DNA of 17,080 nt, from assembly GCA_028708195.1 (NCBI GenBank), contig JAQVZK010000010.1:1-17080 (forward strand), written 5' to 3'. Below are positions 11,759-15,492 of the stretch, piece after piece. Positions within the stretch are counted from its first letter, which is position 1. Each line of letters begins with the position of its first letter. The notes under the pieces were generated by a model that saw only the letters and a list, made by a program, of their open reading frames with translations, had not been told where the DNA came from and searched no databases. This DNA comes from Desulfovibrio sp. GTDB taxonomy: Bacteria; Desulfobacterota; Desulfovibrionia; Desulfovibrionales; Desulfovibrionaceae. A program made the translations under genes and the position numbers.

Positions 11759-12411
11759 AAAATTGGCGTGAAACCATCCTTTCGCAGTTCGACAACAGCC
11801 CGCGCCTGCTGGCTCTGCTGACAGCGTACAACGCCCAGGTAGATCCATCAGCGGACATCGCTGCACTGTACGAGCACGTGTTTGACCCCCGCACGGCCAC
11901 GGGCTGGGGACTGGATGTGTGGGGCCGTATTGTCGGCATCGGCCGCGTAATTCAGCTTGACGCCTCTGGGGCTGTTTTTGGCTTTGATCGCAGTGGGCTA
12001 CGCCCCTTTGGACAAGGCACGTTTTACCGCCGGGCCGTCAGCGCCAACTTTAGGCTGGCCGATGAAGCGTATCGGCTGCTCATATTTTTCAAGGCCGCAG
12101 TAAATATTACTGACGGCTCATTGCGCGATCTTAACCGCCTTCTGGCGTGGTTTTTTGAGTCGCGCGGCCCGGCCATGGTGCTGCATGTAGGCACCATGAA
12201 ATTGCGTTTCTATTTTGACTTCACACTCAAGCCTTTTGAGCGCGCCTTGCTCTCACGTGACGATGTGGCCCCAAAGCCTGCTGGCGTCGGGTGGGAGATA
12301 TACGATGTGCCCAGGGCAAAAACATTCGGTTTCGCTCGTAGTGGCTTGCAGCCTTTCGGGCGTGGAACCTTTGCCAGAAGGAGGCCTTATGGCAATACCT
12401 CAAATTCCTGA
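11755..12411 (+). CDS. Tail/baseplate protein, DUF2612-like
   Basis: A 218-residue protein starting with GTG 11755 in a GTGA overlap, four bases after GGAGG (11746-11750). The N-terminus (SQFDNSPRLLALLTAYNAQV, DVWGRIVGIGRVI) fits DUF2612, the gp48-like proteins that join baseplate J to fibres. A 20-residue segment occurs twice: residues 74-93 (VFGFDRSGLRPFGQGTFYRR) and 190-209 (TFGFARSGLQPFGRGTFARR). The second copy forms the C-terminal end. The last 23 bases overlap the tail fibre start. Confidence 0.8.
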   Translation: MKNWRETILSQFDNSPRLLALLTAYNAQVDPSADIAALYEHVFDPRTATGWGLDVWGRIVGIGRVIQLDASGAVFGFDRSGLRPFGQGTFYRRAVSANFRLADEAYRLLIFFKAAVNITDGSLRDLNRLLAWFFESRGPAMVLHVGTMKLRFYFDFTLKPFERALLSRDDVAPKPAGVGWEIYDVPRAKTFGFARSGLQPFGRGTFARRRPYGNTSNS

Positions 12412-13495
12412 CATTCTGCGAAACGTAATGGCCCATAGTGCTGACGTCGAATCTATCCCCGATGTTACGCCAACTGGCCAAGGTGTCTTTAGTCTTCGTG
12501 ATGGGTGGCCACTCATTACTGAAGTTGAGCTAGAAGCCGGTGGCATTGCCCCCGACCGTAAGTTCTTCAATGGAATTTACCGTCTGTTGTCTGGTCATAC
12601 CTTTTTCAGCCAGTCCGGCAATGTGTATCCGTGGGTTGGCGCGTCCGAAGCATTTCCTGGGCTGAACTATCTGCGTGGCGCACACGTGCTCGGTTCCGAC
12701 TATCAAGAGTATGTGGCCCAAAAGCCCTCTGGTCCGGAAATTCCGGCTGAAGGTGGTGGTTTTGTGGGGCCCGTGGATCCGGTTGGTGATGAAAGCGGCG
12801 TCTGGATGCCGGTATTTATTATTTCAACACTGGAAAAGAACGGCATTAACCGTCCCGACGGCACCACTATTACAATAGATGAGACAGGGAAGCTGACAGC
12901 CGCTGTGTCAAAGTATGAACTTGGTGAATTTTACTATTTCCGCCATCCCACGTTGAAGCCTGGCTTTCAGCCTGCGCAGGGGGGAGTGGTCGCTAACGCT
13001 GCCACAACATTTCCTGAAATTTGGGCCTACCTGCAAACCACTGAAGGGCAAAAGCTCTGCAAGACAGAAGCAGAATGGCAGGCCATGACCACCGCGACCT
13101 GGCACACTAACGCCGACGGTTCAAAAGTCGGCTGGGACGGCATCGGCGGAGCACCCTTTTACGTGCAAAATCTGGGGGCTGGAACTCTCCGCATGCCAGA
13201 CCTGCGCGGCATGTATGCCGAGGCTGCGGGATTCGACGCTCTCGGCGTGGGAGGCGTGCAGGGCGACCAGGGGCGCAATGCGGTGTGTCAATACCAGACG
13301 CTAACTAGTCGGCATCCTGCAGGCCTGCTCATACGTGCGATTGATGCGACAGCAGCCGTTGTTAGCGGCATGGCATCGGATTTTGCCCACCACAATTATG
13401 AGCTTAATCTGTCCCGTGCCATGCCTACCGGCTCGGTCTTTGCCCCCAAGCGTTGGGGCGCATTGGCATGCTGCTACCTCGGCGTACCCAGGTAA
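12389..13495 (+). CDS. Tail fibre protein, collar type, with invertible C-terminal tip
   Basis: A 368-residue fibre that should carry host binding. ATG 12389 follows AAGGAGG at 12378-12384; the frame is open upstream but overlaps the DUF2612-like gene. Residues 1-100 form an attachment region (GGIAPDRKFFNGIYRLLSGH). Residues about 205-295 are a collar-like domain: TTFPEIWAYLQTTEGQKL, NLGAGTLRMPDLRGMYAEAA, then GVGGVQGDQGR, the conserved turn before the tip. Residues 297-368 are the variable tip, ending VFAPKRWGALACCYLGVPR. The tip starts right after an inverted repeat (13237-13275), and the mirror repeat leads into an alternative tip on the - strand. The fibre is therefore likely made in two forms of 368 and 375 residues. 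Confidence 0.85.
   Translation: MAIPQIPDILRNVMAHSADVESIPDVTPTGQGVFSLRDGWPLITEVELEAGGIAPDRKFFNGIYRLLSGHTFFSQSGNVYPWVGASEAFPGLNYLRGAHVLGSDYQEYVAQKPSGPEIPAEGGGFVGPVDPVGDESGVWMPVFIISTLEKNGINRPDGTTITIDETGKLTAAVSKYELGEFYYFRHPTLKPGFQPAQGGVVANAATTFPEIWAYLQTTEGQKLCKTEAEWQAMTTATWHTNADGSKVGWDGIGGAPFYVQNLGAGTLRMPDLRGMYAEAAGFDALGVGGVQGDQGRNAVCQYQTLTSRHPAGLLIRAIDATAAVVSGMASDFAHHNYELNLSRAMPTGSVFAPKRWGALACCYLGVPR
13237..13275 (+). repeat. Left inverted repeat of the tail-fibre switch
   Basis: These 39 bases recur in inverted orientation at 13715-13753. The first 33 (13237-13269) are identical; the only mismatch is 13270 (G here, T in the mirror copy). The repeat encodes ALGVGGVQGDQGR of the fibre. It is GC-rich and contains no obvious AT-rich dyad like the sites of Gin or Hin invertases. 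Confidence 0.9.
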
Positions 13496-13753
13496 CAACA
13501 AGCAAGTGCCCCCCAGCGGCGCGGGGCAAATACGGTGCCGACGGGCGCAACGCGGCTGGCGACAAAACGAGCTGCAAGCATGTCGTGGGCGTTGTTAGCC
13601 ACCCCGCCGCCCAACGTTCCAAGCGACGGGGCGGTCAGCACCGTGGCCGCGCCTGTGTACGCCCCCACGACGTTACTCATGTGGCTAGGGCAGACCATCC
13701 CGCCCACAAGCTCTCGCCCATGGTCGCCCTGCACGCCTCCCACGCCGAGAGCG
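13474..13753 (-). CDS. Silent alternative C-terminal cassette of the tail fibre
   Basis: An open frame on the - strand, read through the right repeat and stopping at TAG 13474-13476. After the shared ALGVGGVQGDHGR it encodes 79 residues that start ELVGGMVCPSHMSNVVGAYT and end VFAPRRWGALACCYLGTPR. The last 19 residues match the expressed tip at 17 positions, while the 60 before them are largely different. There is no ribosome site or plausible start of its own (only a GTG inside the repeat at 13743), so it should be expressed only after inversion. The final 22 bases overlap the end of the fibre gene on the opposite strand. Confidence 0.85.
13715..13753 (-). repeat. Right inverted repeat of the tail-fibre switch
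   Basis: The mirror copy of 13237-13275, with 38 of 39 bases identical after reverse complementing. On the - strand it encodes ALGVGGVQGDHGR in the frame that continues into the silent cassette, so recombination between the copies keeps the reading frame. Confidence 0.9.
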
Positions 13754-13777: not shown

Positions 13778-14017
13778 ATGTGTCACATGCGAGAAATAAC
13801 AGGCGAAGTAGATATTCCTGCGGATTGGAATTTGCCCGAAGGCGCATATGTCAAAGACGGCCTAGTTTATGGAGGTAAACCCCTTGGCGTGGGTGGTGCC
13901 TATTGTGGCTGTCAGCGCGCGGGCCGTTACGGATTCATTTCTTTTGAGGATGCTGAGCTACTCAAATTGCCGGACCTCCAAACTATGTGTCTGGAGAAGG
14001 AGCCTGATAATGCCTAA
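13778..14017 (+). CDS. Small phage protein of unknown function next to the tail fibre
   Basis: A 79-residue protein with ATG 13778 and AAAGGA at 13765-13770. The sequence includes ITGEVDIPADWNLPEGAYVK, VYGGKPLGVGGAYCGCQRAG and LLKLPDLQTMC. It starts 24 bases beyond the right repeat, so it stays outside the switch and is expressed in either orientation. The stop overlaps the start of the fibre-assembly-like gene by 8 bases. I do not recognise the family; a role with the fibre is inferred only from position. Confidence 0.6.
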   Translation: MCHMREITGEVDIPADWNLPEGAYVKDGLVYGGKPLGVGGAYCGCQRAGRYGFISFEDAELLKLPDLQTMCLEKEPDNA

Positions 14018-14534
14018 ATGCTATCAATATACCGCAGACGGCTATTTTGCTGGAGAAGTCGAAGATTATGGTTTGTTGCCCAATAATGCCACGCGTACGG
14101 CTCCCACCGTCGTGGATGGCAAGGTGCCGCGTTGGACCGGAAAAAAATGGGAACAGGTCGAAGATCACAAAGGGAAAAGCGGCTATGTAAATGGCCAGCC
14201 GCACGAAATTAAAGGATATGGGCCTCTGCCGGATGGTTGGAGCGATACGCCACCACCGCCCGCTCTGGCCGATATGCAAGCCACCAAGCGCGCTGAAATA
14301 ACGATAGGTTTTACGGCAGCAATGGCAGCAAGCCTCGCAATGCCGAGCGCCACAATCCCCCCCGCTGCATATGAGGTGGCCACCGCTCTCTATGACTGGC
14401 GCATGGATGACCCCGAAGGTTATGCTGATTTGTTAGCTATTCACGAGGCCCGGCGTGACGCCTTGCTGACCGCTGTGAGCGATGCCGATTCCGACGAAGC
14501 CGTGCAGGCCATAGCGGTTAGTTACGCGGTATAG
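14010..14534 (+). CDS. Tail fibre assembly-like protein
   Basis: A 174-residue protein. ATG 14010 is preceded by AAGGAG at 13998-14003; the upstream open stretch overlaps the small gene in another frame. The N-terminus YQYTADGYFAGEVEDYGLLP, followed by NNATRTAPTVVDGKVPRWTG and KKWEQVEDHKG, matches proteins coded beside collar-type fibres that resemble Tfa assembly chaperones. The middle has GYGPLPDGWSDTPPPP. The C-terminal half (ATKRAEITIGFTAAMAASLA and after) is helical and resembles DUF4376. It lies outside the invertible segment, so it would have to serve both tips. Confidence 0.65.
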   Translation: MPKCYQYTADGYFAGEVEDYGLLPNNATRTAPTVVDGKVPRWTGKKWEQVEDHKGKSGYVNGQPHEIKGYGPLPDGWSDTPPPPALADMQATKRAEITIGFTAAMAASLAMPSATIPPAAYEVATALYDWRMDDPEGYADLLAIHEARRDALLTAVSDADSDEAVQAIAVSYAV

Positions 14535-14543
14535 GGAGTAGTT

Positions 14544-15347
14544 ATGATTTCTACAGCCCTGCCAACTGAATACCGGGGAGGCGTCTGTACTGGCCCGACA
14601 ACTCCGGAAGGAGATGGCATTGTTGCCTCTGGTCCAGGTCACGTTACGATTGTCAGTGATAAGGTTTTTGACTGGCGTGATGTGCCAACTTCTCAGCAAG
14701 ATGAGGTTGTCAGCAGCGCGGACGGCGCCACTGTGCGCATTCAACGCTGTATTATAATTGGGGGCATTAAGGCTCTCCTTGCGGGCAATGGTGACCACCC
14801 AGGCAATGATTCTCGCTATGCGCGTTGGGATCTGGAAGACTGCGTCATTATGGACGCTGGCCGCCGATGCCCGGAAGTGCAGGATGGGGTGGAACTGACC
14901 ATGCGCCGTTGCTGGATACATAACTGGGGCCGTAGGTTCGATGTGCGCGCCTTCGCAGGCTGGGCGCATCGGGGTGGGAAAATAGTTGCTGAGGATTGCC
15001 TGTTCACACAGGACGGCGGGCTATTTAGCCTGGGGTTGCGCGATACCGTGACTGACATGGCAAACCATATTGGCCAGGCCGTTAATGATCATGGGCTTGG
15101 TGCGTTGCTACGGATGCGTACATATCTTCCTGGTGTGTGCCGCGCGCTCACGGCAGATACTGGTGGGCTTGTCTTGGCAACCCGCTGTTTCCGCAATCGG
15201 GCCTGGATCCGCATTGATAACTGTGATCCGTTTATTTCTCGCCGAGATGCGATTGTCATCGCAGAACACATTGATGCGGCGATGCCCCTTCATGCTCATA
15301 ACTATTTGGGCCGTAGCGTCCTGGAGTTGTTTTATGCTCTAACGTGA
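14544..15347 (+). CDS. Parallel beta-helix protein, pectate-lyase (PL1)-like
   Basis: A 267-residue protein with ATG 14544 behind GGGAG. Repeated short strands fit a right-handed parallel beta-helix (GATVRIQRCIIIGGIKALLA, ARWDLEDCVIMDAGRRCPEV, GKIVAEDCLFTQ). The spacing resembles PL1 pectate lyases: a Lys in IKALLAG (K76) at the place of the conserved Lys, and R108-C-P-E-V-Q113 at the place of the RxPxxR motif, so the first Arg is kept and the second is Gln. The calcium-binding Asp residues are not obvious. As the last gene of the operon it may be a tail-associated depolymerase or a binding spike. The fold call is moderate; the activity is uncertain. Confidence 0.6.
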   Translation: MISTALPTEYRGGVCTGPTTPEGDGIVASGPGHVTIVSDKVFDWRDVPTSQQDEVVSSADGATVRIQRCIIIGGIKALLAGNGDHPGNDSRYARWDLEDCVIMDAGRRCPEVQDGVELTMRRCWIHNWGRRFDVRAFAGWAHRGGKIVAEDCLFTQDGGLFSLGLRDTVTDMANHIGQAVNDHGLGALLRMRTYLPGVCRALTADTGGLVLATRCFRNRAWIRIDNCDPFISRRDAIVIAEHIDAAMPLHAHNYLGRSVLELFYALT

Positions 15348-15370
15348 CGCCTTTGTGTTCATGCGCGAAA

Positions 15371-15396
15371 AAAAGCGGGGCTTAGGCTCCGCTTTT
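15371..15396 (+). terminator. Rho-independent terminator ending the phage late operon
   Basis: The 11-base arms AAAAGCGGGGC and GCTCCGCTTTT pair fully (one G-U) around a TTAG loop and end in a T run. It lies 24 bases after the beta-helix gene stop and faces the same way. Confidence 0.85.
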
Positions 15397-15492
15397 GTAA
15401 TTCTATTGCTCTATGTGTAATGTCATACTTGGAGAGTTATAACCGCCCGAGGGCGCAAATTTTCGCGCCGCGCATCACCCAAGAACTTTCAT
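15397..15492. other. Probable right prophage junction region
   Basis: This gap lies between the phage terminator and an open frame of host-like style. I see no tRNA end or long repeat that would mark an attachment site. The other prophage end is outside the window, so the exact att or target-duplication bases cannot be named. A 26-codon frame from ATG 15420 to TGA 15498-15500 is present but has no ribosome site. Confidence 0.4.

Follow-up and report, generated by a model that had tools for sequence, protein, structure and literature searches.

Can a prophage exchange the tip of its tail fibre by inverting a segment of little more than 500 bp, and what kind of enzyme would carry out the inversion? 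The question is raised by a stretch of 17,080 nucleotides from Desulfovibrio sp. (GenBank assembly GCA_028708195.1, contig JAQVZK010000010.1), here called the window. The window is one complete contig (C326) of a genome, G000, that is assembled in 344 contigs and is 78% complete; the genome-wide negatives given below for G000 cover that assembly only. The window contains prophage late genes, with a baseplate protein (phrog_6) encoded upstream of the tail-fibre gene in question; a host-like RNA helicase gene stands at its end. In what follows, G, C, L, and P numbers denote genomes, contigs, loci, and fibre proteins. The answer that we consider quite probable is that the segment is one of a group of related tip-switch modules in prophages of the Desulfovibrionaceae, served by a dedicated tyrosine recombinase, with inversion taking place at a short core sequence.

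The Segment and Its Two Tips

The fibre gene (Table 1) is read from an ATG that gives MAIPQIPD as the first residues, and its product matches the tail fiber protein family phrog_12796 over the first 106 residues (E 3e-9). An initial annotation, made from the sequence alone, had described two 39-bp inverted repeats, identical at 38 of 39 positions, around about 517 bp. The left repeat was placed in the fibre gene at the GVGGVQGD turn, and the right repeat was said to lead, on the opposite strand and in frame, into a second C-terminal cassette with nearly the same 19-residue end. This anatomy was confirmed. The two repeats, or arms, are complementary at 38 of 39 positions, the next longest inverted pair among those listed for the window having 37 nt at 70%. 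The longest exact inverted run is 33 nt, compared with a mean of 13.6 and a maximum of 16 in 100 dinucleotide shuffles. Cassette A forms the present tip; cassette B, behind the right arm, has an open frame throughout, and 17 of the last 19 residues of the two tips are alike.

Inversion in silico keeps the frame and yields a fibre of 375 residues. The predicted replacement is thus upheld, but not its extent: the change begins at residue 294, where the single arm mismatch turns Q into H, and 75 residues are exchanged for 82, instead of residues 297–368 for 79. Tips A and B have 28 aligned residues in common and differ throughout, not at scattered positions. As had also been noted, no fibre-assembly gene lies inside the segment; the assembly-like gene is found outside it. 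A structure prediction for the whole fibre was poor (pLDDT 48) and was dropped; a second one, of residues 170–368 (97 rows), was used instead.

A Family of Modules in Related Prophages

The fibre alignment was used to search 79 genomes of the genus, including G000, of which 32 gave a match; 14 regions were drawn from the genus genomes with a match, and virus and genome contigs were scanned as well. Counting the window, 16 convergent cassette pairs are present in 13 loci, and a single site is present in L019. Of the resulting 33 sites, 12 are joined to a fibre of this kind. The cassettes at the other 21 sites all have open frames that close with the conserved motif. Among 21,000 random 85-codon frames drawn from seven of the loci, those in real genes not excepted, 4737 are open. 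The tail-to-tail packing is tight, with a 22-bp overlap in four pairs, a 6-bp overlap in eight, abutting ends in two, and a 6-bp gap in one. In the remaining pair, that of L013, the expressed tip is broken, the fibre-joined cassette ending early (31 codons); the pair was counted nevertheless. A second, silent pair is found in L020, L055, and L056, which have four sites each, and L017 has a silent pair alone.

Omitted as duplicate records were L008, L016, L021, L058, L136, L137, and L139, together with short loci of the same places. Also omitted were L062, L107, and L108 (a spacer variant), L151 and L152 (other tip families), and L135 and L138 (cut at contig ends), so that none of these loci contributes to the 33 sites. 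In L061 (9700–10242; G004:C41), the outer site of a pair stands in frame after 562 open residues of another protein; this minus-strand site was classed as not fibre-joined despite the long open frame before it. The opposite orientation of the window segment, which the initial annotation proposed to look for in relatives, was sought in the other 78 genus genomes; only site and short tip matches were returned, and no copy of the segment.

The Putative Crossover Site

The modules have in common the core CTC(T/C)C-GGCGT-GGGAG, of which the window has two inverted copies. Partner sites are alike at positions −1 to +9 (CGGCGTGGGAG) in all 16 pairs, an agreement that the site search itself largely demanded from 0 to +7, and at −5 to −3 in 14 to 15 of the 16. 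At position −2, T is found in all 12 fibre copies and in 7 of the 21 other copies. Since C at −2 would put a proline in the fibre, exchange probably takes place at a point to the right of this position. The pattern CTCYC-N5-GGGAG occurs 12 times in five loci (80.7 kb): 11 occurrences are known cassette sites, and the twelfth is an arm close to where L062 ends. The pattern fails to match one of four sites in L055 and two of four in L020. In a G026 sub-clade, the 5-bp arms of the core are kept around the spacer AGCAT, which is the pattern to be expected of recombinase arms flanking a free spacer.

The left edge of the long arms is sharp at the core even though only one of the two flanks is coding, and the core is conserved at third codon positions. 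In three fibres that have no partner cassette, the site is clearly different (L004 and L064) or one base off (L009). L004 (1264–2805; G000:C170) is a second fibre of the window's own genome, with a related collar and tip end, an altered site, and no inverted partner.

The site has a counterpart in a host locus. L140 (7930–11918; G058:C1) is a CRISPR array with 65 exact repeats, next to genes for Cas1f, Cas6f, and Cas7f. Three spacers in a row, identical and 32 nt long, match the crossover site and have 2 mismatches to either window arm; further spacers correspond to other prophage loci of this set at 2–5 mismatches. Judged from these matches, the three spacers would represent host immunity directed at the portion of the tip module that does not change.

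Tips Shared by Unlike Fibres

Full fibres with tips like both cassettes of the window are known from relatives. P0076 has a tip 94% identical to the variable part of cassette B, and P0018 one that is 76% identical to the present tip A; each tip search gave one such close carrier. P0076 and P0018 have nearly the same backbone (206 of 220 residues identical), with an N-terminal part unlike the window's in both, and they are therefore not two states of the window locus. Hidden cassette B is, to judge by its match, a real tip. For 4 of the 21 cassettes not joined to a fibre, a full fibre elsewhere has a tip at least 94% identical to the variable part.

Tips and collars could be compared separately in 119 of 130 fibres; in another set, 9 of 120 could not be split. 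In 129 fibre pairs, which are not independent and come from a database clustered at 90% identity, the collars are at least 98% identical and the tips less than 50%; because of this clustering, the five pairs with like tips are no fair contrast to the 129. Conversely, ten pairs have a tip in common (at least 90% identity) on collars below 80%. The tip cores are 100% identical in five of these ten: in two, identity begins within one residue of the site, and in three, all with P0002, it begins about ten residues before the site, in a conserved stretch. Single cases agree. The G008 fibre and P0076 are alike at 219 of 220 backbone residues and have unlike tips. Both silent facing tips of L055 occur on full fibres, one on P0042, P0045, P0047, and P0002 and the other on P0038; the backbones of P0038 and P0045 are identical at 207 of 216 residues. 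Such tip sharing is comparative evidence for exchange at the site, as distinct from observed flipping.

A Linked Tyrosine Recombinase without an Arm-Binding Domain

In relatives, the modules usually come with an enzyme. A tyrosine recombinase of about 305 residues starts 49–55 bp from the core of the outermost site in all seven loci measured. Three examples match Phage_int_M and Phage_integrase. The NCBI model for P4-type integrases (PRK09692 / NF007246) is matched below its cut-off and only from position 103–106 of 413, which indicates that the N-terminal, arm-binding part is absent. The enzyme thus resembles the P4-type integrases in its core-binding and catalytic domains and differs from them in the missing N-terminal part. 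In a tree with 24 longer integrases, eleven armless recombinases come out as a single clade (100/100); that the 24 have the arm domain is deduced mostly from their longer N-termini. The tree rows are frames with loci given, not every match; 5 of 40 recombinase frames were omitted as broken, cut, or fused.

Not all eleven adjoin cassettes. The G057 pair lies 1.5 kb off, no cassettes were found beside the G076 gene, and two G026 copies are at contig ends with site-like sequence. These two contigs (L107, G026:C1; L108, G026:C7) start at most 180 bp from the recombinase gene, at a site-like sequence with the spacer AGCAT, as if the assembly had broken at the module. Conversely, the cassettes of the window, L057, L060, L023, and L024 have no adjacent armless recombinase. 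In other genera, the recombinase stands next to convergent cassettes of two further tip families, one with exact 34-nt arms (L151) and the other with 15-nt arms (L152). A recombinase search of the viral contig collection gave two distant integrases only. L110 (283–1212 and upstream; G052:C89) has a recombinase piece without its first part, in frame with an unrelated long protein. IntDes, described as a Desulfovibrio-only integrase group of unknown function (PMC8138268), was considered as the identity of the recombinase. It was rejected on reading the sequences, since IntDes has altered catalytic residues and the enzyme here has an HGFR motif.

The Window Locus Lacks the Recombinase

Downstream of the segment, the genes of the window are collinear with those of L056, and the assembly-like gene is 90% identical to its counterpart there. 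The 267-aa open reading frame (ORF) that follows has no match in Pfam, PHROGs, or NCBIfam, though it is conserved beside modules in five other loci. In L059 (G057), the fibre pair is followed by the assembly gene, the 267-aa ORF, the recombinase, and the flank. In the window, positions 15363–15477, directly after the 267-aa ORF, are 81% identical to the DNA just behind the L059 recombinase. A search of the window for the armless recombinase gave no match, even at E 10; the available genome gave none either, and a PF00239 serine recombinase was not found in that genome. Three proteins of G000 match PF00589; they were not accepted as candidate invertases, as we take them to be XerD, XerC, and a molybdate-regulator-like protein. 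L060 (G005) and L057 (G053) have no adjoining enzyme either, and each of these genomes has one on another contig. No recombinase was seen in the virus records of L023, L024, and L019, which may be fragments. With no recombinase at the syntenic place or in the available genome, the window would be a recombinase-less module, either driven in trans or frozen. The initial annotation had not remarked on this absence.

Table 1. Features of the window around the candidate invertible segment (aa, amino acids; nt, nucleotides).
Feature	Position	Strand	Remarks
Tail-fibre gene, present state, cassette A as tip	12389..13495	+	368 aa; stop 13493-13495
Candidate invertible segment	13237..13753		517 bp; bounded by inverted arms
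Left arm	13237..13275	+	39 nt; inside fibre gene at GVGGVQGD
Left crossover-site core	13239..13253	+	CTCTC-GGCGT-GGGAG; putative role
Silent alternative tip, cassette B	13474..13743	-	read from right arm; in frame, 90 codons, fully open; stop ends at 13474
Overlap of convergent cassette ends	13474..13495		22 bp; YLGxPR and stop encoded on each strand
Right arm	13715..13753	-	39 nt; leads into minus-strand cassette B
Right crossover-site core	13737..13751	-	CTCTC-GGCGT-GGGAG; putative role
79-aa ORF	13778..14017	+	directly downstream of segment; no family match found
Tail-fibre-assembly-like gene	14010..14534	+	phrog_105, E 8e-7; best match phrog_1807, tail fiber protein
267-aa ORF	14544..15347	+	counterparts in L024, L055, L056, L059, L060, 58-70% identity
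Junction	15348..15477		recombinase gene of relative G057 absent here

Proposed Mechanism and Alternatives

We suggest the following. A short, putative crossover site stands in two inverted copies, and the two alternative fibre tips encoded between them converge tail to tail. An armless P4-type tyrosine recombinase would bind the 5-bp arms of the core and exchange strands between them, so that the segment flips. Neither the assembly gene nor the constant region of the fibre would move, and the tip would be swapped along with the strand that returns to the collar, presumably altering the receptor bound. With the second silent pair of three relatives, up to four tips may be available. Because the linked enzyme is of the tyrosine type, the anatomy recurs, and tips are shared, the module probably works like a one-segment shufflon and not like the serine systems of Mu and P1. 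At the window itself, the recombinase being missing from its usual place, any flipping would depend on an enzyme supplied by another source in the cell; otherwise, the locus is now frozen.

Our confidence in this proposal is good rather than complete, as the count of 129 fibre pairs carries less weight because of the database clustering. At the window locus, the module may have evolved as a switch, lost its recombinase, and become an immobile relic, a reading to which we give somewhat less than an even chance. The enzyme is absent from the syntenic place and from the genome as assembled, as a relic would have it. Yet the arms still match at 38 of 39 positions and the silent cassette is intact, its 90 codons closing with the conserved end, so that any loss would be recent. 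Moreover, L060 and L057 keep arms of 31/31 and 44/45 with their enzyme on another contig. A frozen window would in any case bear on present activity only, not on the nature of the module.

The remaining alternatives concern that nature. Homologous exchange or gene conversion between cassettes, with no site-specific recombinase and the arms merely kept alike in the process, would account for tips common to unlike fibres and for a second fibre in G000 that has a like motif and no inverted partner; arms of up to 45–50 nt could serve homologous recombination. We nevertheless regard it as unlikely, given the sharp left end of the arms despite their coding and noncoding flanks, the dedicated recombinase at a fixed distance in relatives, and a core that is kept at third codon positions and differs in the three partnerless fibres, if only by a single base in L009. 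A serine invertase of the Gin/Cin/Min kind would follow the same logic, inversion exchanging the 3′ end of a fibre gene; with no PF00239 protein in the 78%-complete genome and a tyrosine recombinase as the enzyme linked to the family, it is very improbable. An assembly artefact is hardly credible at all. The genome is in 344 contigs, and a repeat could be created or misplaced in such a fragmented, metagenome-type assembly, but the layout recurs in many records, including those of few contigs (G008, one; G091, three), and the downstream genes of the window are collinear with L056.

The proposal of a tip-switch module with its own tyrosine recombinase can be extended, though we hold the extension to be doubtful. 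An armless recombinase encoded by one prophage may flip the tip modules of co-resident prophages as well and, via the shared site, move tips between phages. Recombinase-less modules would then be clients of a common tip pool, and the host CRISPR spacer would target the stretch that the clients share.

Comparison with Known Inversion Systems

In the G segment of Mu, the C segment of P1, and Min of p15B, fibre 3′ ends are switched by serine invertases, the segments being larger and holding assembly genes. The initial annotation saw the logic of Mu and P1 in a much smaller form. As regards tip-only inversion without an assembly gene, this is supported by the architecture in relatives, the 21 of 21 open cassettes, and the shared tips; a close kinship to Mu and P1 is not, as PF00239 is lacking and the enzyme is a tyrosine recombinase of the P4-integrase type. 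The R64 shufflon, in which segments with alternative C-terminal ends of a plasmid pilus tip lie between inverted sites, offers a better comparison: the window resembles a shufflon segment. The window is not classed as a full shufflon, because it has only two sites and a shufflon has three or more. The Rci of R64 is described as a tyrosine recombinase without an arm-binding domain (PMC8138268). R64 differs, in the features described, in that it acts on a pilus tip rather than a phage fibre and that Rci falls in the IntP2 group, as against the P4 type here; the window also has one segment only. The arm domain may thus have been lost repeatedly in inversion enzymes.

The nearest published case among those compared is the Rin shufflon of Bifidobacterium prophages, judged by its described features. 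There, C-termini of receptor-binding proteins are inverted at short sites, with an armless tyrosine recombinase beside the cassettes; a second locus of about 500 bp has no recombinase beside it, much like the window (PMC6109161). Rin differs in its host phylum, in an 11-bp site of another sequence, and in having tandem cassettes as against the tail-to-tail pairs here. The same paper names the Mu G segment, the P1 C segment, and p15B Min among inversion systems (PMC6109161). In the Int1 module of the haloviruses phiCh1, phiH1, and ChaoS9, a tyrosine recombinase likewise inverts tail-fibre genes; these are archaeal viruses, and the enzyme is itself encoded within the region that inverts, flanked by two long fibre genes (PMC6471424).

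The genus also has what looks like a second, unrelated fibre shufflon. In L063 (8433–13194; G007:C1), three silent cassette pairs, each convergent, come after a fibre gene; their repeats are different ones (GCCTTTCCGAAATTGGGTGCTGGG and similar), and an assembly-like gene and a 352-aa tyrosine recombinase are present as well.

Significance

Fibre-tip inversion has been described in few phages, mostly with serine invertases. The modules analysed here represent a compact form of tip inversion that recurs in Desulfovibrionaceae prophages: the site is fixed, the recombinase can be recognised, and tips turn up on fibres that are otherwise unlike. Searches of an open-licence library found no printed description of these tip-switch modules; a 2025 paper on D. 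piger prophages reports diversity-generating retroelements, and the word "inversion" is absent from its main text (PMC12724379). The site motif and the recombinase clade should make such switches easy to annotate. The modules offer a natural system in which to ask how an armless tyrosine recombinase favours inversion and whether prophages share an enzyme in trans. They also bear on how sulfate reducers and their phages track each other's surfaces.
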